Shown here: one piece after another, positions 7,956 through 64,000 of the stretch
Layout of the letters: each line of letters starts with the position of its first letter
Numbering within the stretch: the first letter of the stretch is position 1
Virus record (IMG/VR): IMGVR_UViG_3300009149_000025
Location: 1 to 64,000 of that record
Origin: a virus
Strand: one strand, 5' to 3'
Length of the DNA: 64,000 bases
Program-made: the position numbers and the translations under genes
Notes under the pieces: generated by a model
Databases searched by the model: none
What the model was told of the DNA's origin: nothing
Seen by the model: the letters and a program-made list of their open reading frames with translations, nothing else

Positions 7956-8636
7956 ATGGTATATGTTGGTATAGATATTTCGGTTAATTCGACTGCAGTT
8001 TCAATTTTTGATGGTGAATATAATTTTTATAATTATACAACAAAGAAATCCAATTACACTTGGATAAAAAAAACAATAGATATAATCAATTTTAGATTTT
8101 TCCATTTTGGTTATAAAGATATTGTTGAATTCTCAGATAAATTATTATCGAAAGTAAAAGATTACGATAGTTATTCAGATTTAATTATTAATGATATAAA
8201 AAGTCATGGATGTATTCCATGTGGTGATAAATTTGTAATAGGTATTGAAGGATATAACTATGGTCTGAAGACAACAGATTCTATTATAGATCTTGCTGAA
8301 TTAAGTAGTATTATAAAAATGAAATTGGTAAAGAACTTTCCTGACTCTCAAATTATTATAATGCCACCAAAGACTGTAAAGATAAAATCCTGTAAGATGG
8401 TATATAAGGTGATTGATGGTAAAAAGGTTGTTAGAAATGATAAAGGTGTTGCTGGTGGTAGTTTTGATAAGCATGATATGATGGTAGCTCTTTTGGATAG
8501 TAAAATGGAAAATAAATTAATAGAATTTTTAAAAGAAAATCAGGAAATTTTATTAAATATGAAAAATATCCCTAAGCCGTGGGACGATATAACTGATTCT
8601 CTATTCATTATGGAAATTGTTAAAAATGAAATTTAA
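7956..8636 (+). CDS. RuvC-like Holliday junction resolvase
   Basis: 226 aa with an RNase H-like/RuvC pattern. GIDISVNSTAV at residues 5-15 carries the first catalytic Asp, VIGIEGYNYG near residue 94 supplies the Glu, and SFDKHDMM plus WDDITDSLFI near the C-terminus supply the last acidic residues. A PPKTVK segment sits between them, as in phage RuvC-type resolvases. It would resolve branched DNA before packaging. A 138-nt non-coding leader precedes it; its 3' end overlaps the convergent nuclease fragment by 36 nt. Confidence 0.75.
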   Translation: MVYVGIDISVNSTAVSIFDGEYNFYNYTTKKSNYTWIKKTIDIINFRFFHFGYKDIVEFSDKLLSKVKDYDSYSDLIINDIKSHGCIPCGDKFVIGIEGYNYGLKTTDSIIDLAELSSIIKMKLVKNFPDSQIIIMPPKTVKIKSCKMVYKVIDGKKVVRNDKGVAGGSFDKHDMMVALLDSKMENKLIEFLKENQEILLNMKNIPKPWDDITDSLFIMEIVKNEI

Positions 8637-8825
8637 CTTTTCATTTATTTTTTCGTTGTATTTAATTCTAAATAATTTTATATTATGTTTTTTACAATAA
8701 TTATTTTTAATTTTATCATTTATTTTAGTATTCTTTAAATTATCATCACCACCAAAATAATCTATAGATTCAAAATGTTGAATTCCATCATATTCTATAC
8801 AATAATTAGTTGTTAATTTTTTCAT
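8601..8825 (-). pseudogene. Truncated Vsr/EDxHD-like homing endonuclease remnant
   Basis: 74 aa that match only the C-terminal part of the full-length nuclease at 15556-16455: CIEYDG-QHF, then DKIKNNYCKKHNIKLFRIKY in the same order. The upstream part of that nuclease, including the repeated binding modules and the FDFYLP strand bearing the first catalytic Asp, is missing. Its ATG overlaps the stop of the upstream RHH gene as ATGA, so it is still translationally coupled. It is most simply a decayed homing nuclease, but it could be a retained small protein. Confidence 0.65.
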
Positions 8826-8983
8826 ATAAACATATCTTTTTCTATTAGATTATTATCTTTCATATCTTTATATATTAAATATTCTACATATTTTGATTTA
8901 TTTTCAAAATTTTCAGACAAGAATTCTATGAGTTCTGGAATCAGAGTTATTGTTACTTTTTGTTTTGTTATTTTCTTTTTCAT
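8822..8983 (-). CDS. Ribbon-helix-helix protein, homing-nuclease-coupled type
   Basis: 53 aa, MKKKITKQKVTITLIPELIE followed by ENKSKYVEYLIYKDM. The short N-terminal strand, a helix, and an S-K-Y-V-E-Y-L-I helix fit Arc/MetJ/CopG-type RHH DNA-binding proteins. The closest relative in the window is the RHH at 62843: both have N-K/R-S-K-Y-x-E-Y-L-I-Y and L-I-E-K near the end. It is divergent from another RHH gene at 9082 and overlaps the nuclease remnant downstream by ATGA. Autoregulation of the locus is an inference. Confidence 0.75.
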   Translation of the reverse strand: MKKKITKQKVTITLIPELIEFLSENFENKSKYVEYLIYKDMKDNNLIEKDMFI

Positions 8984-9000
8984 TTTGTTTTCTTTTTATT

Positions 9001-9014
9001 AGTATATATAAAAT
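9001..9014 (-). promoter_or_regulatory. Phage-type promoter candidate for the minus RHH gene
   Basis: Read on the minus strand this is ATTTTATATATACT, a match to the recurrent T-rich TATATATA element, 18 nt upstream of the RHH start at 8983. It lies in the 98-nt divergent region between the two RHH genes. Confidence 0.5.
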
Positions 9015-9049
9015 AAAATATATCATATTTTTCCATTTTAGAACATGAT

Positions 9050-9063
9050 TTATAAATATATAA
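9050..9063 (+). promoter_or_regulatory. Phage-type promoter candidate for the plus RHH gene
   Basis: TTTATAAATATATAAG-type sequence about 19 nt upstream of the ATG at 9082. Together with the minus-strand element at 9001 it makes the region a divergent promoter. Confidence 0.45.
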
Positions 9064-9081
9064 GAATAAATTAGATAGAAT

Positions 9082-9258
9082 ATGATAGGAAGGCCTAAGA
9101 TTAAAAATAAGAAAAAGAATTTATCATTATCATTAAATATTGAATTAGTAAAGATATTAGATAAATATTTAGAAGATAAAGATATTAATAAATCTAAATA
9201 TGTAGAATACCTTATTAAAAAGGATATGAATAAATCAAATAAAGAATTTAATATATAG
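9082..9258 (+). CDS. Ribbon-helix-helix protein (RPK type)
   Basis: 58 aa from ATG 9082 to TAG 9256-9258. It starts MIGRPKIKNKKKNLSLSLN, then has a helix and INKSKYVEYLIKKDM. The G/A-R-P-K basic arm, the beta strand and the K-S-x-Y-x-E-x-L-I-K-K-D-M helix are shared with the RHH at 62554-62763, which also sits divergent from a nuclease-coupled RHH. It is therefore one half of a duplicated divergent RHH pair. It uses a UAG stop, showing that UAG terminates in this genome. The gap to the next gene is 4 nt. Confidence 0.75.
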   Translation: MIGRPKIKNKKKNLSLSLNIELVKILDKYLEDKDINKSKYVEYLIKKDMNKSNKEFNI

Positions 9259-9798: not shown

Positions 9799-11316
9799 AT
9801 GATTATAGATAATAAATGTAAGATTAAAATCACGAATAGGAATAAAAAATATTTTAAATCTAAAGGATATTTATGTGATAATGAATACGAAAATGTAAAT
9901 CCAAATGATTTGAGTAATGGGAGTAATATTAAAATTACGGTTAAATGTGATTATTGTGATAATATAAAAAATATTTCTGTAAAAAATTATAATTCTGTAA
10001 AAAGTAAAAATAATGATGAATATTATTGTTCTAAATGTTGGAATAAACGATTAAAAAAAATAATGATAGATAAATATGGAGTAGATATTCCATTAAGAAA
10101 TAAAAAAATACAAGAAAAACAGAAAAATACATTATATAATAATTATGGTGTTTATCATCCATCTGAAAGTAAATTATTGAAAGGTAATTTAAAAAATATA
10201 TTAATTGATAAATATGGTGTAGATAATGTGTCAAAAATTGATACTGTTAAAATAAAAAAAATAAAATCCTTAAAAAAATCTTCTTTATTTAGATTAAAAT
10301 CTAAATATAATGAAATAATAGATTTTGATTACGATACAAAGATATTGAAATGTGTATGTATTAATCATAATTATAATATATCATATGATTTATTTTACAA
10401 TAGAAAGGAATTAAATACTGTAATATGTACAATATGTAATCCTATTAATAAAAATATATCTGGTTTAGAAATCCAATTACAAGATTTTATTAAAGACAAT
10501 TACACTAATATTATATTAAATGATAGACATTTAGGTAAAGAACTTGACATTTATGTTCCTGATTTAAAACTTGCATTTGAATTTAATGGTTTATATTGGC
10601 ACAATGAAATTAATAAAGAAAATAATTATCATTTAAATAAAACTGAATTATGTGAAGAACAAGGAATTCAATTGATTCATATTTATGAAGATGATTGGTT
10701 ATATAAACAAGATATTGTTAAATCTGTGATATTAAATAAATTAGGTAAATCTGTAAATAAGATATATGCCAGAAAAACAGAAATCAGAGAAATAACTGAT
10801 AATAAAATAGTTAGAGAATTTTTAAATAAAAACCATCTTCAAGGATTTATTGGTGGTAAAGTAAAATTAGGTTTATATTATGATAATAAATTGACTAGTT
10901 TAATGACATTCGGAAAAAGAAGGGTTGTAATGGGTAAAAAGGGTTCAGAAGAAGGAGAATATGAGTTATTAAGATTTTGTTCCAAACTAAATACAAATGT
11001 AGTTGGCGGTGCAAATAAATTATTTAAACATTTTGTTAGGAATTTTCAACCAAAAGAAATAACAACATATGCTGATATGTCATGGAGTAATGGTAATTTA
11101 TATGAACAATTAGGGTTTGAATATCAGGGCAAAACAAAACCTAATTATTATTATATAATTGATGGAATTAGACATTATAGATTCAACTACAGAAAAGATA
11201 AATTAATGAAAGAAGGATATTCTAAAGAAAAAACTGAAAAACAAATAATGTTAGATAGAGGAATTTATAGAATATATGATTCTGGTAATCTAAAATTTAT
11301 ATATAATATAATATGA
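9799..11316 (+). CDS. Large free-standing homing endonuclease (Vsr/EDxHD-like)
   Basis: 505 aa. The N-terminal half has zinc-ribbon-like CDYCDN and CSKCW pairs (residues ~50-80) and two repeated DKYGVD modules of the kind used for DNA recognition by phage nucleases. The core from residue ~240 reads GKELDIYVPDLKLAFEF, NGLYWH, matching the PD-(D/E)xK/Vsr-like catalytic arrangement (D..E..H). A C-terminal domain (LQGFIGGKVKLGLYY, TTYADMSWSNGNLYEQLGF) resembles a GNAT-like region often fused to this nuclease type. Its TGA overlaps the next ATG. It is likely a mobile gene inserted between phage genes. Confidence 0.7.
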   Translation: MIIDNKCKIKITNRNKKYFKSKGYLCDNEYENVNPNDLSNGSNIKITVKCDYCDNIKNISVKNYNSVKSKNNDEYYCSKCWNKRLKKIMIDKYGVDIPLRNKKIQEKQKNTLYNNYGVYHPSESKLLKGNLKNILIDKYGVDNVSKIDTVKIKKIKSLKKSSLFRLKSKYNEIIDFDYDTKILKCVCINHNYNISYDLFYNRKELNTVICTICNPINKNISGLEIQLQDFIKDNYTNIILNDRHLGKELDIYVPDLKLAFEFNGLYWHNEINKENNYHLNKTELCEEQGIQLIHIYEDDWLYKQDIVKSVILNKLGKSVNKIYARKTEIREITDNKIVREFLNKNHLQGFIGGKVKLGLYYDNKLTSLMTFGKRRVVMGKKGSEEGEYELLRFCSKLNTNVVGGANKLFKHFVRNFQPKEITTYADMSWSNGNLYEQLGFEYQGKTKPNYYYIIDGIRHYRFNYRKDKLMKEGYSKEKTEKQIMLDRGIYRIYDSGNLKFIYNII

Positions 11317-14822: not shown

Positions 14823-15569
14823 TTAAATTGGTTCGAACCAGTAATTAAAGAAGTAGTAGTCATTATTTTTCAAATAATACTTCTTATCATTTTGTTTCAT
14901 AATAATATATGGTGTTCCATCTTTTTCCATATCAACCCCTTTGATTTCAACTATACTACCTTCTTTTAATTTAACAACAGTACCCATATCATTTTTAACA
15001 CGACAATCTTGTTTCAGGTTGGTATATAATTCTTTTTTCGGTCTGAACCAATTATCTAATATGTTTTTCATATAAGCACTTAATTTAAGTCTATATTCAT
15101 AATCCATATAATTAAATCTACCATCTGTAAACATTTCAGATTGTAAAAAAGTTTCAGAGAAAAAATTGAAATTTTTAAATACACCAAAGAATTCTTCATC
15201 ATTGAAATTAAATGATATAAATATATCTAAATGGAGTGAATCATTTTTAAATATTCTTAAAATTTTATAGTCTGAATAATTTTCAATATCGTCTAAATAA
15301 TTATCTTGTTTTGATAATTCAATAGATGTTTGAATATCATTCATAGCTGAATTAGCTATTTGTTTTAATCTTGATATAGAACCACCAGTTCTTGAATAAT
15401 AATCAACATAAGGGCTAGCTGAATCTTGTCCATATATAGATAAATTTGGATCGGTGGCGAATCCATATGCTGGACCAAGTGGGTTTTGTGCTCCTATATC
15501 CATTTGATATTGGTTAAATTCAGAATATTCTAGAATTAATTTTATATTACTATATTTAAGATTTTTCAT
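14823..15569 (-). CDS. Unknown protein, possible head-associated leader
   Basis: 248 aa, starting MKNLKYSNIKLILEYSEFN. The L-E-Y-S-E-F segment is like the L-Y-E-E-F leaders elsewhere in the window. Residues ~20-60 are rich in Gly, Pro and Tyr. The C-terminal ~60 residues form a strand-rich region (VKLKEGSIVEIKGVD) like a small barrel. It overlaps the upstream nuclease gene by 14 nt. Confidence 0.5.
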   Translation of the reverse strand: MKNLKYSNIKLILEYSEFNQYQMDIGAQNPLGPAYGFATDPNLSIYGQDSASPYVDYYSRTGGSISRLKQIANSAMNDIQTSIELSKQDNYLDDIENYSDYKILRIFKNDSLHLDIFISFNFNDEEFFGVFKNFNFFSETFLQSEMFTDGRFNYMDYEYRLKLSAYMKNILDNWFRPKKELYTNLKQDCRVKNDMGTVVKLKEGSIVEIKGVDMEKDGTPYIIMKQNDKKYYLKNNDYYFFNYWFEPI

Positions 15570-16455
15570 TTAGAATTAACATATTTAATTTTTCAATAAT
15601 ATTTTCATCATATTTAATTCTATATAATTTAATATAATTGTTTTTGCAGTATATATTTTTAATTTGATCTCGTTTTTTTCGTATGTTTAATTTATCGTTA
15701 TTTTCTTCAAATCTATATTTTCTAAAATGTTGTTCTCCATCATATTCTATACAACAATTAAAAATTGGTAAATAGAAGTCAAATTTTAATAAAGATTTAT
15801 ATTTACATTTTTTAAATGTTTTTTGAGTTTCAAAATTTATTTTATTATTTAATAAATAGTTATTTATTTTCTTTTCACCTTTGGATTCATTACATCGTGG
15901 ACAACCTGAATTTGTGTGACTTTTTGGTATTTGTTTAAATATTCCATGAATTGGACAAATAATTTCAATTGGAGTTCTACTATTTTTATAATCGATTAAA
16001 GAATAATCATATTTATAATTATGAATGATATTAGATTTATCTATAAATTTTTTTAGTTGTAGTTTTTGTTTAGAAAGATTAGAACATTCTAAACATCCAT
16101 TTCCTCTTAAATGTGAATATGGGATTTGTTCAAAAATCCCATGTTCTGAACATATTATTTTAATTTTATTAACTCTATTTTTATAGTCGATTAAGGAATA
16201 ATCATATTTATCACCATGAATTTTTTTAGACTTTTTAATAAATATATCATTATTCATTTTTTCACAATTTACACATTTAGGACAACCTCTACCATTTAGG
16301 TGATTATTTGTAATTTGTTCAAAAATACCATGTTCAGGACAAATAATTTTAATTTTATTTCGTGTTCCATTATAAACGACTAAACTATAATCATATTTAT
16401 TACCATGTATTTTAATAGACTTTTCAATAAATTCATTTGTGTTGTATTTATCCAT
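15556..16455 (-). CDS. Homing endonuclease, repeated DNA-binding modules plus Vsr/EDxHD-like nuclease
   Basis: 299 aa. Three ~60-residue repeats share I-H-G-x-K-Y-D-Y-S-L-V/I and KIICPEHGIFEQI, each ending with a Cys pair (GCPKC, GCLEC, GCPRC); this is the DUF723-type recognition repeat of free-standing phage nucleases. The C-terminal ~100 residues carry KFDFYLPIFNCCIEYDGEQH, the catalytic strand pair of Vsr-like enzymes. It acts on DNA and is probably a selfish insertion between the 14823 gene and a divergent promoter region. Confidence 0.75.
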   Translation of the reverse strand: MDKYNTNEFIEKSIKIHGNKYDYSLVVYNGTRNKIKIICPEHGIFEQITNNHLNGRGCPKCVNCEKMNNDIFIKKSKKIHGDKYDYSLIDYKNRVNKIKIICSEHGIFEQIPYSHLRGNGCLECSNLSKQKLQLKKFIDKSNIIHNYKYDYSLIDYKNSRTPIEIICPIHGIFKQIPKSHTNSGCPRCNESKGEKKINNYLLNNKINFETQKTFKKCKYKSLLKFDFYLPIFNCCIEYDGEQHFRKYRFEENNDKLNIRKKRDQIKNIYCKNNYIKLYRIKYDENIIEKLNMLILNEKS

Positions 16456-28361: not shown

Positions 28362-29147
28362 TTATTTTATTTTTTTATAACTCCAATAAAAACCACCAGA
28401 TGACTTTGTGGTTTGTCTAGCACAATTTCCAATTGCAATATTATTTAAACTCAATTTTCTACTTGCTTCAGAACAGCTTTTCCATTCTTTAATTAATTTA
28501 AAACTTTTTGTATATTGATAAACTTTTTTAGAATTTATATCATGTCCTTTACTAAAAGAAGTTTTATTGGGTTTTTTGATTTTATCATTAGCCCATTTTA
28601 TATGTTCTAATAATTCATCACTTGACATATTAGTATATTCTTCATAATATAACCATATATAACCTTTACAAGTTTTTCTGGATTTATTAAGAGTTCCTCC
28701 AAGATTACCACCATTTAAATCAAAATACAAGTTAGCATCTTTGATAGATGGAAAAATTTTAAATATATTACCATTTGTTTTTAATGATATAACTTTTTTA
28801 TTACCATCCCCTTTTTTAAATGAAGTTTGATTACCAAATGTTAAACCATATCCTCCTTCGGTATGATTAACTAATTTACAACCTTTATCTGTGTAATATT
28901 TAATCCAGTATTTTTCTCTTTCTTTCCAATTATCGTTGTTAGTTTCTTCTATCATTTCCATAATTGGTTTCAATCCATCTTTTATCAATTTGTTAATCCA
29001 ATTTCTTTTGTGGGTGTTTTTATCCCTACATTTATTTATATGATTTTTAAATCTTTGTTTTAAATTTCTAGATTTCCCGACATACCTTATCTTGTTATTG
29101 ATTGGGTTTTTTAAAACGTAAATAAAACATTTATTATCCATAATCAT
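28362..29147 (-). CDS. GIY-YIG homing endonuclease with NUMOD modules
   Basis: 261 aa. FIYVLKNPINNKIRYVGKS is a GIY-YIG catalytic core (the YVLK / YVGKS form), with R in LKQRFKNH and E in WKEREKYWI following. After residue ~100 come NUMOD-type recognition segments: NQTSFKKG and TSFSKGHD (NUMOD3-like), and KKVYQYTKSFKLIKEW followed by SCSEASRKLSLN (NUMOD1-like). It is a free-standing mobile endonuclease. It has its own promoter-like element upstream. Confidence 0.85.
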   Translation of the reverse strand: MIMDNKCFIYVLKNPINNKIRYVGKSRNLKQRFKNHINKCRDKNTHKRNWINKLIKDGLKPIMEMIEETNNDNWKEREKYWIKYYTDKGCKLVNHTEGGYGLTFGNQTSFKKGDGNKKVISLKTNGNIFKIFPSIKDANLYFDLNGGNLGGTLNKSRKTCKGYIWLYYEEYTNMSSDELLEHIKWANDKIKKPNKTSFSKGHDINSKKVYQYTKSFKLIKEWKSCSEASRKLSLNNIAIGNCARQTTKSSGGFYWSYKKIK

Positions 29148-60124: not shown

Positions 60125-60802
60125 ATGAAAACAGTACTAATAGAAATTAGGGACATGGAAGGTGGTGATGATGCTAAGCTTTTAGTCCAAGAAATGAAAA
60201 ATATTTATCTAAAATCAATAAGAATAAATGATTTTAGAATTACATCTATGGATGAAAAATATGGTTAGTTAACCATTGAAGTCTGTGGTGATAATGTAAA
60301 AAAATTCTTCTCAAAAGAAATAGGTGGACACAGATTTCAAAGAGTTCCACCAACCGAATCAAAAGGTAGAGTACACACTTCTACAATTTCCGTATCAGTT
60401 TTAGATAGTAAGTCAGAAGTATCTGATAATCTAAATATGGATGATATTAATGTTTTTTATACAAAAGGAACAGGACCTGGTGGACAACATAAGAATAAAA
60501 CACAATCATGTGTTAATATGGTACATATACCTACAGGTATAAAGGTAATGGTAGATGGGAGAAATCAACACCACAATTACGATGGAGCTTTAAAAGAATT
60601 AAAAAAAAGATTGAAAGATAAGAATCAATCGGATTATGATAAAGGATATTTTGATGAAAAAAGAAATTAAATCGGTATTCAAAATAGAAGTAATCGTAGA
60701 AGAACTTACAATTTTAGAAATGGAATAGTAACAGATCATTTAACTAATAAGAGTACAACAGTGAAGAATGTATTAAAAGGAAAAATTGATTTATTACATT
60801 AA
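60125..60802 (+). pseudogene. prfA-like: RF1-like release factor gene with in-frame UAG and UAA
   Basis: One frame of 226 codons from ATG 60125 to TAA 60800-60802, interrupted only by TAG 60266-60268 and TAA 60668-60670. Part 1 (VLIEIRDMEGGDDAKLL) is the start of RF domain 2. Part 2 has the RF1 stop-recognition tripeptide PPT (RFQRVPPTESKGRVHTS) and the catalytic G-G-Q (GTGPGGQHKNKTQSCVNM). Part 3 is the C-terminal RSNRRRTYNF and GIVTDH. RF domain 1 is absent. GGQ and P-x-T are intact. It is either recoded (autoregulated) or recently inactivated. Confidence 0.8.
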
Positions 60803-60810
60803 TGGATAAA

Positions 60811-60843
60811 AAAAACCTCAAATAATTTATTTGAGGTTTTTTT
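60811..60843 (+). terminator. Terminator after the RF1-like gene
   Basis: AAAACCTCAAATAA / TATTTGAGGTTTT stem followed by T run, 8 nt after the last RF1 stop. Its place after the full 226-codon frame, and not after the first or second stop, supports a single gene. Confidence 0.85.
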
Positions 60844-60872
60844 GAAAATTTAAAAAAATATGAGTTTGAAAT

Positions 60873-60884
60873 CTTTATATATAC
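60873..60884 (+). promoter_or_regulatory. Phage-type promoter candidate
   Basis: CTTTATATATAC, about 20 nt upstream of the RHH start at 60904. Confidence 0.45.
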
Positions 60885-60903
60885 TATAAAATATAAAGAA
60901 GAT

Positions 60904-61059
60904 ATGAAGAAATCAGATAAAAAGTTGTGTAATTTTTGGCTACCCAATGAAATTTATGAACATTTAAAATTAAATTCAAAAGATAATTATATGTCAATGA
61001 CAGATTATGTTATTCAAATGTTATTAAGAGATAAAAAAAAATTAGATAAAGGTGTATAA
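60904..61059 (+). CDS. Ribbon-helix-helix-like protein, HNH-coupled
   Basis: 51 aa: MKKSDKKLCNFWLPNEIYEH and MSMTDYVIQMLLRDKKK. Short strand, helix and an S-M-T-D-Y-V-I helix are RHH-like, although less clear than the other copies. Its TAA at 61057-61059 overlaps the GTG start of the HNH gene at 61052 by 8 nt, so the two are coupled. Confidence 0.6.
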   Translation: MKKSDKKLCNFWLPNEIYEHLKLNSKDNYMSMTDYVIQMLLRDKKKLDKGV

Positions 61060-61678
61060 TCATAAAGAATATCAGAAAAATTATTATGAAAATAATAAAG
61101 AAGAATTGAATAAGAAATCAAAAGAATGGGGATTAAAAAATAAAGAAAAGGTTAAAGAATATCGGAAAGAATATAATTTAAAAAATAACAATGTAAATAA
61201 AGAAAGAAGCAAAAAATGGGCATTAGATAACAAAGATAAATCAAAAGAATGGGTATTAAAAAATAAAGAGAAGATTAAAAAATATAAAAAAGAATATAGA
61301 TTAAAAAATAAAGAAAAAATAAAAGAAGATTATAAAAAATGGCGTTTAGAAAACAAACAATGTAGAATTCGTAGATTAATTGGTAATTCTTTTAAAAATT
61401 GTGGGTATAAGAAAAACACAAAAACTGAAAAAATATTAGGTTGTACATTTGAACAATTTAAAACACATATTGAAAACCAATTTGAAAATTGGATGTCGTT
61501 TGACAATCATGGTAAATATAATGGAGAATACTTCTTTGGGTGGGATATAGATCATATAGTTGAATTAAAAAGTGCTAAGACAGAAGAAGATATATTGATA
61601 TTAAATCATTATTCAAATTTAAGACCATTGGATAGTAAAATCAATAGAGTTGATAGAAACAAAAAAAGAGAAAGTTAA
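61052..61678 (+). CDS. HNH homing endonuclease
   Basis: 208 aa from GTG 61052. The N-terminal ~100 residues are repeats of K-E-W-x-L-K-N-K-E-K and K-x-Y-R-x-E/K-Y, a lysine-rich recognition tail. The core is TFEQFKTHIENQFENWMSFD, then FFGWDIDHIVELKSA (HNH D-H) and LNHYSNLRPLDSKINRVDRN (N..N). This is the family of phage HNH endonucleases that cut at homing sites. Its stop lies within a terminator stem. Confidence 0.85.
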   Translation: MYNHKEYQKNYYENNKEELNKKSKEWGLKNKEKVKEYRKEYNLKNNNVNKERSKKWALDNKDKSKEWVLKNKEKIKKYKKEYRLKNKEKIKEDYKKWRLENKQCRIRRLIGNSFKNCGYKKNTKTEKILGCTFEQFKTHIENQFENWMSFDNHGKYNGEYFFGWDIDHIVELKSAKTEEDILILNHYSNLRPLDSKINRVDRNKKRES

Positions 61679-62553: not shown

Positions 62554-62763
62554 TTAAATCTTTCTATTCCATTCATTACGAAGATTTTGGAGTTGATCAT
62601 CAATCTTATTTCCCATATCTTTTTTAATCAAATGTTCAATATACTCCGATTTAGATAAGTTATTTTCATCTACAAAATTATTCAAAATTTCATTCAATTC
62701 CTTTTTTATTGTGATGGACATAGTTCTCTTTTTGTCTTTTTCTTCTTTTTTTGGTCGTGCCAT
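62554..62763 (-). CDS. Ribbon-helix-helix protein (RPK type)
   Basis: 69 aa: MARPKKEEKDKKRTMSITIK, a helix, then LSKSEYIEHLIKKDM. It shares the R-P-K arm, strand and K-S-x-Y-x-E-x-L-I-K-K-D-M helix with the RHH at 9082, and is divergent from the LAGLIDADG-coupled RHH at 62843, as the 9082 gene is from the one at 8822. Longer C-terminal helix than its paralogue. Confidence 0.8.
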   Translation of the reverse strand: MARPKKEEKDKKRTMSITIKKELNEILNNFVDENNLSKSEYIEHLIKKDMGNKIDDQLQNLRNEWNRKI

Positions 62764-62812
62764 ATTAAAATCTTTTTTCTTTATATCATTTTGGAAAAAA
62801 ATGGTTTTATTT

Positions 62813-62825
62813 ATTTTATATATAG
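62813..62825 (+). promoter_or_regulatory. Phage-type promoter candidate
   Basis: ATTTTATATATAG, 18 nt upstream of the RHH start at 62843, inside the 79-nt divergent region. Confidence 0.45.
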
Positions 62826-62842
62826 TAATAAAACAACAACAA

Positions 62843-63007
62843 ATGAAAAAGGTAAAAACTAAAGTTAGTATATCAATTGCTATTAATAATGAATTATATG
62901 ATTATTTAAAAGAAAATATAAATAATAGATCAAAATATATTGAATATCTTATTTATCAAGATACTAAATCTAAAGGATTAATTGAAAAAGAATTGTATAT
63001 AATATGA
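62843..63007 (+). CDS. Ribbon-helix-helix protein, LAGLIDADG-coupled
   Basis: 54 aa from ATG 62843: KVKTKVSISIAINNELYDYL, then NNRSKYIEYLIYQDTKSKGL and IEKELYII. Paralogue of the RHH at 8822 (S-K-Y-x-E-Y-L-I-Y, L-I-E-K). Its TGA overlaps the ATG of the LAGLIDADG gene as ATGA, so the nuclease depends on translation of this gene. The strand-helix-helix pattern is clear. Confidence 0.8.
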   Translation: MKKVKTKVSISIAINNELYDYLKENINNRSKYIEYLIYQDTKSKGLIEKELYII

Positions 63008-63804
63008 AAATAGATAAAGAAACATCTTATATGATTGGTTTTTTCCAAACTGATGGAAATTTATATCAACAGAAAAATACTAAATATGATAAAGGAAAGG
63101 CATCTATAGAAATATCTGAAAAAGATATAGATATATTAGAAAAATTGAGTAATATAATACCATATTATTCAAGTATTAGAAAAAGGAATAGGGATATTAT
63201 AATGAAAGGTAAAAATTACAATTTTAATAGTGTAAATTTAACTATTTGTAATAAAGAATTTAGAAAATTTCTAAATGAAAATGGTGTTCCTTATGGTAAA
63301 AAATCAAAGATTATTAAACCACCACATAATATAATAAGAGAAGATTATATAAGGGGACTTATAGATGGGGATGGTTCATTGGGATTTATTAAAAATGGAA
63401 ATCCATTTGTTACATTTGTTTCGGAAAGTGATGATGTTATTGGTTATTTATTAGATTATATTTCCGATATAACTGGAAACGAAAAGAAAACTATGAATAG
63501 AAACAATAGGGATGGTATATACAATGTTATGATAAAAAACGAAGATGCAATGGTGTTTTGTGATAATATTTATTATAATAATTGTTTATCTTTGGATAGA
63601 AAATATAAAATATCACAGGATATTAAAAAATGGAAAAGACCTGAAGGTGAATTCAAAGTCACTTGGCAACGAAGAAGATGGACGGATGGTGATGATGATT
63701 TTATATTAAATCATGATATTTATGAATCGATGGAAAAATTAGATAGAACTGAAAAAAGTATTAAAATGAGATTAATTAGATTAGAAAATAATCATAAGTA
63801 TTAA
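63004..63804 (+). CDS. LAGLIDADG homing endonuclease
   Basis: 266 aa. The two LAGLIDADG-type helices are YMIGFFQTDGN (~9-19) and YIRGLIDGDGSLGF (~118-131), with acidic catalytic residues at their ends. The C-terminal ~60 residues (WQRRRWTDGDDDFILNHDIY, then SMEKLDRTEKSIKMRLIRLE) form a Myb/SANT-like helix-turn-helix for added DNA binding. Probably a selfish insertion, coupled to the upstream RHH gene. Confidence 0.88.
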   Translation: MKIDKETSYMIGFFQTDGNLYQQKNTKYDKGKASIEISEKDIDILEKLSNIIPYYSSIRKRNRDIIMKGKNYNFNSVNLTICNKEFRKFLNENGVPYGKKSKIIKPPHNIIREDYIRGLIDGDGSLGFIKNGNPFVTFVSESDDVIGYLLDYISDITGNEKKTMNRNNRDGIYNVMIKNEDAMVFCDNIYYNNCLSLDRKYKISQDIKKWKRPEGEFKVTWQRRRWTDGDDDFILNHDIYESMEKLDRTEKSIKMRLIRLENNHKY

Positions 63805-63847: not shown

Positions 63848-64000
63848 ATGTTAGAAATAAAAGGAAAATATACAGACGCACTAATCACAATTGATGATAT
63901 CGAAGAATCATGTTTACGTCAAGTTTACGCTATGGCTAATCATGTTGCTTTTGATGGTAAAATTGTTATGATGCCAGATTGCCATGCTGGAAAATCAGCT
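63848..64000 (+). CDS. rtcB: RtcB-type RNA ligase (5' part, continues beyond window)
   Basis: 51 codons are visible: MLEIKGKYTDALITIDDIEE at the start and KIVMMPDCHAGKSA at the window end. The M-P-D-C-H-x-G motif holds the metal-binding Asp, Cys and His of RtcB, which joins 2',3'-cyclic-phosphate or 3'-phosphate RNA ends to 5'-OH ends. In phages it is thought to repair tRNA cut by host nucleases. Has a host-like promoter. Confidence 0.88.
   Translation, partial: MLEIKGKYTDALITIDDIEESCLRQVYAMANHVAFDGKIVMMPDCHAGKSA

Follow-up and report, generated by a model that had tools for sequence, protein, structure and literature searches.

Exchangeable homing-type nucleases behind a conserved divergent pair of predicted RHH genes in giant phages

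Homing nucleases are generally regarded as selfish genes that are complete in themselves; regulated homing nucleases are known, as are operons that join RHH and nuclease genes. In phage T4, intron nucleases use the middle and late promoters of the phage and I-TevI represses its own, and several of the free-standing enzymes (seg/mob) lack a dedicated promoter (PMC2988022). The open-access literature that we searched describes no RHH-controlled homing-nuclease cassette, in agreement with the initial annotation of the DNA analysed here, which knew of none. This DNA, hereafter the window, is the whole stretch of 64,000 nucleotides at the start of the 69.8-kb viral fragment IMGVR_UViG_3300009149_000025 from IMG/VR (69,824 bases). 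A cassette at 62554-63804 is situated just 5' of rtcB and has the following features.

62554 to 62763, minus strand: R, 69 aa (MARPKKEE..), predicted RPK-type RHH protein, divergent partner
62780 to 62831, plus strand: predicted phage-type promoter of Y and the nuclease, GGAAAAAAATGGTTTTATTTATTTTATATATAGTA, weight-matrix score 35.8
62843 to 63007, plus strand: Y, 54 aa (MKKVKTKV..SKYIEYLIY..), predicted Arc-like RHH protein, first gene of the putative nuclease operon
63004 to 63804, plus strand: LAGLIDADG endonuclease, 266 aa, free-standing, basic/SANT-like C-terminus, ATGA-coupled to Y
63848 to 64000 and on to record position 65263, plus strand: rtcB, intact ORF, likely homing target

All three ORFs of the cassette had been proposed in the initial annotation and were found where it had placed them, and the coupling that it claimed is present as a 4-nt overlap (ATGA) of the Y stop and the nuclease start. 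Its assignment of the nuclease to LAGLIDADG also holds: the protein matches Pfam LAGLIDADG_3 above the cut-off (E = 2.8e-8) and phrog_4645 (endonuclease, 1.4e-26), and contains two LAGLIDADG-type motifs with the catalytic acids, GFFQTDGNL and GLIDGDGSL. The SANT-like C-terminus proposed for the same protein is plausible, given a full-length alignment to phage proteins, one of them labelled "HTH homing endonuclease", but it has no Pfam match.

Both small proteins agree with RHH proteins in size and fold (about 45-55 aa, an N-terminal strand and two helices). The AlphaFold model of Y (23 sequences, pLDDT 83) shows strand-helix-helix geometry with helices at residues 16-25 and 29-43, and its best solved match is the Arc repressor (VIA-align Z = 5.1 over 45 residues, 1.9 Å). 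The Foldseek match to Arc (E = 1.1) is weak on its own, and a PDB sequence search with the Y profile gave no match. For R, aligned in sets of 16 and 27 rows and modelled with helices at 15-33 and 38-68, the matches listed by Foldseek are all weak. The PDB sequence matches of its profile, also weak (E 0.02-0.08), are exclusively RHH proteins (CopG, NikR, Rv0298 and 2kel), and R matches phrogs annotated as "transcriptional repressor" (2e-6) and "Arc-like repressor" (6e-5). The strand of an RHH protein pairs only in the dimer and is therefore invisible in a single-chain model. By these features R and Y classify as RHH-type proteins, as had been claimed for both, and they are predicted to bind DNA as dimers through a β-ribbon.

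Two further cassettes lie in the same record.

8601 to 8825, minus strand: copy 1 nuclease, truncated treble-clef/Vsr-type, 74 aa, C-terminal catalytic half only
8822 to 8983, minus strand: copy 1 Y, 51% identical to Y at 62843
8996 to 9047, minus strand: predicted promoter of copy 1 Y, weight-matrix score 45.5
9082 to 9258, plus strand: copy 1 R, 44% identical to R at 62554
60839 to 60890, plus strand: predicted promoter of the third cassette, weight-matrix score 27.7, same promoter class as that of Y
60904 to 61059, plus strand: RHH gene of the third cassette, second RHH lineage, no divergent R seen
61052 to 61678, plus strand: HNH nuclease of the third cassette, W-DIDH..N..NL motif, aligns with the HNH genes of other cassettes

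The region 8601-9258 had been described as sharing the design of the cassette at 62554. This stands for R and Y, which are homologous between the two copies (44% and 51%), but not fully for the nuclease, of which only a C-terminal fragment is left. The third cassette (60904-61678) was located through the promoter matrix, without sequence similarity to Y; like the link to rtcB, it was absent from the initial annotation. Its RHH gene overlaps the HNH gene, encodes a protein 44% identical to the RHH protein preceding an HNH gene in the 735-kb Mahaphage LR756501 (at ~69.9 kb), and matches the NikA-like family of Pfam weakly (E = 0.023). Three more nuclease genes of the record, at 9799-11316, 15556-16455 and 28362-29147, have no RHH partners.

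Scanning IMG/VR with a Y profile built from the two window copies identified 19 loci, and enlarged profiles raised this to 30 loci for Y and 40 for R; because some of the contigs are redundant, the loci outnumber the independent events. Profiles were required, as single-protein scans with the LAGLIDADG protein or Y found nothing. Against named phages, tblastn gave no match for Y and two weak matches only for R. After duplicate removal, the IMG/VR profile scans left 34 distinct Y genes. A nuclease-like ORF lies directly after Y in 33 of the 33 cases with readable 3' DNA, a set seeded with nuclease-linked RHH genes, and R-seeded and motif-seeded searches gave the same pattern. Relative to the Y stop, the ORF starts at -23 to +7 nt, and about half of the 33 junctions are 4-nt overlaps. 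Additional Y genes found through the promoter motif alone likewise precede nucleases. Because nucleases follow all 33 Y genes but make up 6 of the ~100 genes in the window (own count), chance adjacency is excluded.

The nucleases behind Y are of the GIY-YIG, HNH, PD-(D/E)XK/Vsr, LAGLIDADG and TnpB types, assigned by Pfam where a family matched (GIY-YIG, LEM-3 GIY-YIG and NUMOD; LAGLIDADG; Cas12f1-like/OrfB for TnpB; DUF7487; DUF4379/DUF723 treble clefs) and otherwise by conserved motifs, with the HNH and PD-(D/E)XK/Vsr calls made partly by eye. A TnpB-like protein is the cargo behind Y at L053:4147-5466. R and Y are separated by a median of 106 bp (70-150 bp in 28 of 32); R is missing in two cases (L048 and L095) and distant in four. 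The converse arrangement occurs at L060:3950-4162, where a solitary R stands beside half a Y promoter, Y and the nuclease are gone, and a flanking gene is related to one in L053; this R may have an independent function.

The terminase of the window phage best matches those of LR756501/LR756503 (735 kb, 53% identity), followed by LR745206, LR756502 and LR756504 (634-642-kb genomes). The study PMC7162821 assigned its largest genomes (634, 636, 642 and 735 kb) to the Mahaphage clade, whose predicted hosts are Bacteroidetes. By terminase similarity, the window phage is classed as Mahaphage-like, with Bacteroidota as the predicted hosts. A complete cassette is present in the 735-kb LR756501, with the promoter, Y at 91.9 kb, a divergent R and a treble-clef/Vsr nuclease right after Y; Y was not detected in the three remaining complete genomes (634-642 kb). 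Bacterial and archaeal genome contigs, scanned once with the Y profile, yielded no relative at that sensitivity. Two features of the window's other proteins may be recorded here. Many unrelated proteins encoded within 12283-62279 start with MKHLKLYEEF (DFNDDDFDFEEE) or MKxFxxFxNE, a repeated N-terminal leader, and positions 1-959 encode a collagen-like GTSGTDG repeat protein, related repeats of which lie beside the rtcB locus of a sister phage (L105, 1000-1520).

The two RHH genes and the nuclease have different histories. Pairwise distances among Y proteins follow those among R proteins (Mantel r = 0.741, with 0 of 5000 permutations as high) and are barely predictive of nuclease type (r = 0.125, 62 of 5000). 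On the combined Y and R tree, nuclease type changes at least 14 times, and supported clades with mixed nucleases include the window with L056 (98/95), L062 with L064 (99/97), L041 with L042 (100/100), L054 with L071 (100/98) and L051 with L092 (100/94). Y genes that are 74-85% identical precede unrelated folds, namely HNH and LAGLIDADG, HNH and PD-(D/E)XK, PD-(D/E)XK and TnpB, or GIY-YIG and LAGLIDADG. At two loci the swap can be seen directly. L015 and L016 share high DNA similarity over R, the intergenic region and Y; it breaks exactly after GACTAATG, where the Y stop meets the nuclease ATG, and returns near the nuclease 3' end, ahead of dam, the cargo being HNH in one and LAGLIDADG in the other. 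The sister contig 3300024262_000026 matches the window at the rtcB locus (86% nt identity over 1.37 kb of rtcB, 76% over R and Y), but a GIY-YIG/NUMOD3 nuclease starting at GTGA replaces the LAGLIDADG gene, and 114 bp of the LAGLIDADG 3' end survive as a remnant on the far side of R.

Module swapping behind a conserved RHH unit, as the initial annotation had suggested, agrees with the concordant R and Y distances, the varying nuclease and these two direct swaps, and the check for separate origins of the two window pairs came out in favour of their common descent. At the level of sequence comparison, we conclude that R and Y stay together and co-diverge, and that the nuclease has been exchanged among at least five catalytic types; nuclease swapping behind the pair is well supported.

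A 52-nt weight matrix derived from Y promoters and run on the 69,824-base record exceeds a score of 20 at only three sites, before the two Y genes and in the third cassette. The element before Y, ATRGAAAAATATGACTTTATTTTATTTATATATA, ends in TATATATA, which starts ~26 nt before the ATG. In an IMG/VR-wide pattern scan, 24 of 93 sites (own count) precede Y genes; others lie upstream of tail-sheath genes (phrog tail sheath, 1.2e-87), TnpB genes, further homing nucleases, IS607-type transposases and a conserved gene of 427 aa. Because the element also precedes these genes without RHH partners, it is better read as a general phage promoter than as an RHH-specific operator, a role for which it was considered and rejected. 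The class, AATAGAAAAAAATGACTTTTTT-N4-TTAATATATA, recurs before the tail-sheath and 427-aa genes of Mahaphage-like contigs (L106, L107, L116, L160, L187 and others) and before TnpB and IS607 genes. Identification of the 427-aa gene as a capsid gene was dropped, as PHROGs and Pfam give no support. Judged from its distribution, the element is a promoter class of these phages common to mobile nucleases, and its use at the tail-sheath gene suggests that the class is late.

No clear RHH operator was found in the R-Y intergenic regions, where the shared promoter is the strongest conserved element, and no promoter common to the R genes emerged. In an exploratory comparison, two words were enriched at Y promoters, GTTTAA (12/32 versus 0/44 at others) and ATATACTA (12/32 versus 1/44), which we regard as candidate Y-specific words. 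The GIY-YIG sister at rtcB is without the upstream half of the promoter element. L015 and L016 both keep a perfect inverted repeat, TAGATTTTTATTATTTATAATAAAAATCTA, immediately before the R start codon, a candidate operator or mRNA hairpin.

The nearest relatives of the window LAGLIDADG protein (39-43% identity) all lie in or beside rtcB. In Bacillus phages the relative is encoded by an rtcB group I intron; L096 has it head-to-head with rtcB, L097 within a split rtcB, and L098/LR745208 as a 5'-truncated copy directly 3' of the gene. The Bacillus introns match Rfam RF00028; Rfam detected no intron in the window or at the other non-Bacillus rtcB loci, and with an intact rtcB ORF the window enzyme is not encoded in a group I intron. 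Window rtcB carries an uninterrupted, conserved GGTGGAGGT|AATCATTA at the Bacillus intron position; the exon ends of Goe17 that flank the intron there read GGGGGAGGT|AATCATTT. From the rtcB-linked relatives and this uninterrupted intron-site sequence, homing of the LAGLIDADG gene into rtcB is likely, and from the neighbourhood in the relatives we infer that rtcB is the cleavage target. Other features of the region concern rtcB itself. A sequence resembling a host-type TANNTTTG promoter (TATCTTTG) appears to precede the gene, and a 77-aa GGQ protein (60437-60670; RF-1 domain, E = 9e-17, PrfH/RF1-like) is encoded nearby, with two nuclease cassettes in between; this protein and rtcB are possibly a phage RNA-repair pair of the PrfH-RtcB type.

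We propose, with somewhat better than even confidence, that R and Y form a modular cassette for free-standing homing-type nucleases, which they repress, and that the present cargo homes at rtcB. The sequences establish gene order, coupling, R-Y co-divergence, nuclease exchange and the promoter class; we infer that R and/or Y represses the nuclease. R and Y are two related small genes that point away from each other on either side of an intergenic region of ~100 bp, and Y and the nuclease are likely an operon under the phage-class promoter. R and Y would bind the intergenic region and repress this promoter, Y as an autorepressor whose level is tied to that of the nuclease and R as the product of a separate promoter, such that the nuclease would be made only briefly or at a low level. 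The same control would pass to whatever nuclease ORF recombines into the place after Y; a newly arrived cutter would then do the phage no harm and be more likely to persist. The present LAGLIDADG enzyme would cut rtcB alleles lacking the LAGLIDADG gene, near the sequence that is the intron site in Bacillus phages, and, sited immediately 5' of this gene, spread by intronless homing. A further proposal, which we hold only tentatively, is that the module is a universal "nuclease socket": its two repressors would have evolved together to bring mobile nucleases of whatever fold, TnpB among them, under a phage promoter and domesticate them, and new selfish nucleases would enter giant phages through exact substitution of the ORF behind Y.

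A toxin-antitoxin-like reading, in which Y is an RHH antitoxin that neutralises the nuclease protein by binding and also autoregulates, would account for the gene order, the small upstream RHH gene and the 4-nt overlap, and both small proteins have faint antitoxin resemblances (Y to MazE in NCBIfam, 6e-5 and below the cut-off; the R model to DinJ, weakly, Z = 3.0). A type II antitoxin, however, is specific for its cognate toxin, and here near-identical Y proteins go with different folds. Neutralisation of so many unrelated enzymes by Y genes 74-85% identical is hard to envisage, and the cargo consists of homing-type nucleases; we consider this reading improbable. Because the same Y accompanies unrelated folds, control at the DNA level is favoured over protein neutralisation.

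RHH relaxase accessory proteins act at oriT, and the RHH proteins might likewise assist the nuclease in locating, bending or occupying the DNA that it targets, or shield the copy carried by the cassette itself. Translational coupling and the weak NikA-like match of the third-cassette RHH (E 0.023) would fit such a role, but many of the nucleases have DNA-binding parts of their own (NUMOD1/3, treble-clef repeats, SANT-like), and a single Y type accompanies enzymes at rtcB, dam and helicase loci, so that Y is unlikely to confer target specificity; an accessory role is equally doubtful. A role of R and Y in trans at many promoters of the phage, either to time late expression or to interfere with phages that co-infect, is also unlikely, if marginally easier to credit. 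The motif is shared with the tail-sheath, 427-aa, TnpB and IS607 genes and one R persists alone after loss of Y and the nuclease (L060), but the 634-642-kb relatives have no Y match, cassettes vary in number and place like cargo rather than a core regulator, and GTTTAA and ATATACTA are rare at the other promoters. Local repression of the cassette by R and Y is the reading that we retain.

If it is correct, the repressor pair endures while unrelated nucleases replace one another behind it; regulation would then be under selection separately from the cutter, and R/Y control would explain how giant phages carry many nucleases harmlessly. The natural swap pairs make tight regulation of homing nucleases a testable question, and the rtcB-linked LAGLIDADG family, with members in an intron of, inside, 5' and 3' of rtcB, provides a natural series for the joining of intron and endonuclease. 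Together, the data point to the R/Y pair as a reusable control unit for selfish nuclease genes in giant phages.

Compared with known systems, the conserved divergent RHH pair with exchangeable nucleases points to an arrangement so far undescribed in the open-access literature. As in type II toxin-antitoxin operons with RHH antitoxins, a short RHH gene lies upstream of and overlaps the nuclease gene; unlike there, the same RHH goes with unrelated nucleases and the unit includes a second, divergent RHH gene. The rtcB intron endonuclease of Bacillus Herelleviridae (Goe17, OM728300; 278BB001, MZ501265) is a ~41% identical LAGLIDADG protein, aligned over nearly its full length, with the same target gene, but it resides in a group I intron within rtcB (RF00028, 68-71 bits), whereas the window enzyme is free-standing, 5' of an intact rtcB and behind an RHH pair. 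As in the intronless homing of T4 seg/mob, the nuclease gene adjoins its likely target gene without an intron; in contrast to seg/mob, it has its own predicted promoter and a conserved divergent RHH pair behind which the nuclease is exchangeable. Like I-TevI of T4, which is transcriptionally repressed on top of translational control (PMC2988022), the window enzyme is a homing nuclease under its own putative phage promoter. The T4 repressor is the nuclease itself, whereas in the present cassettes nucleases of many folds come with two separate RHH genes.
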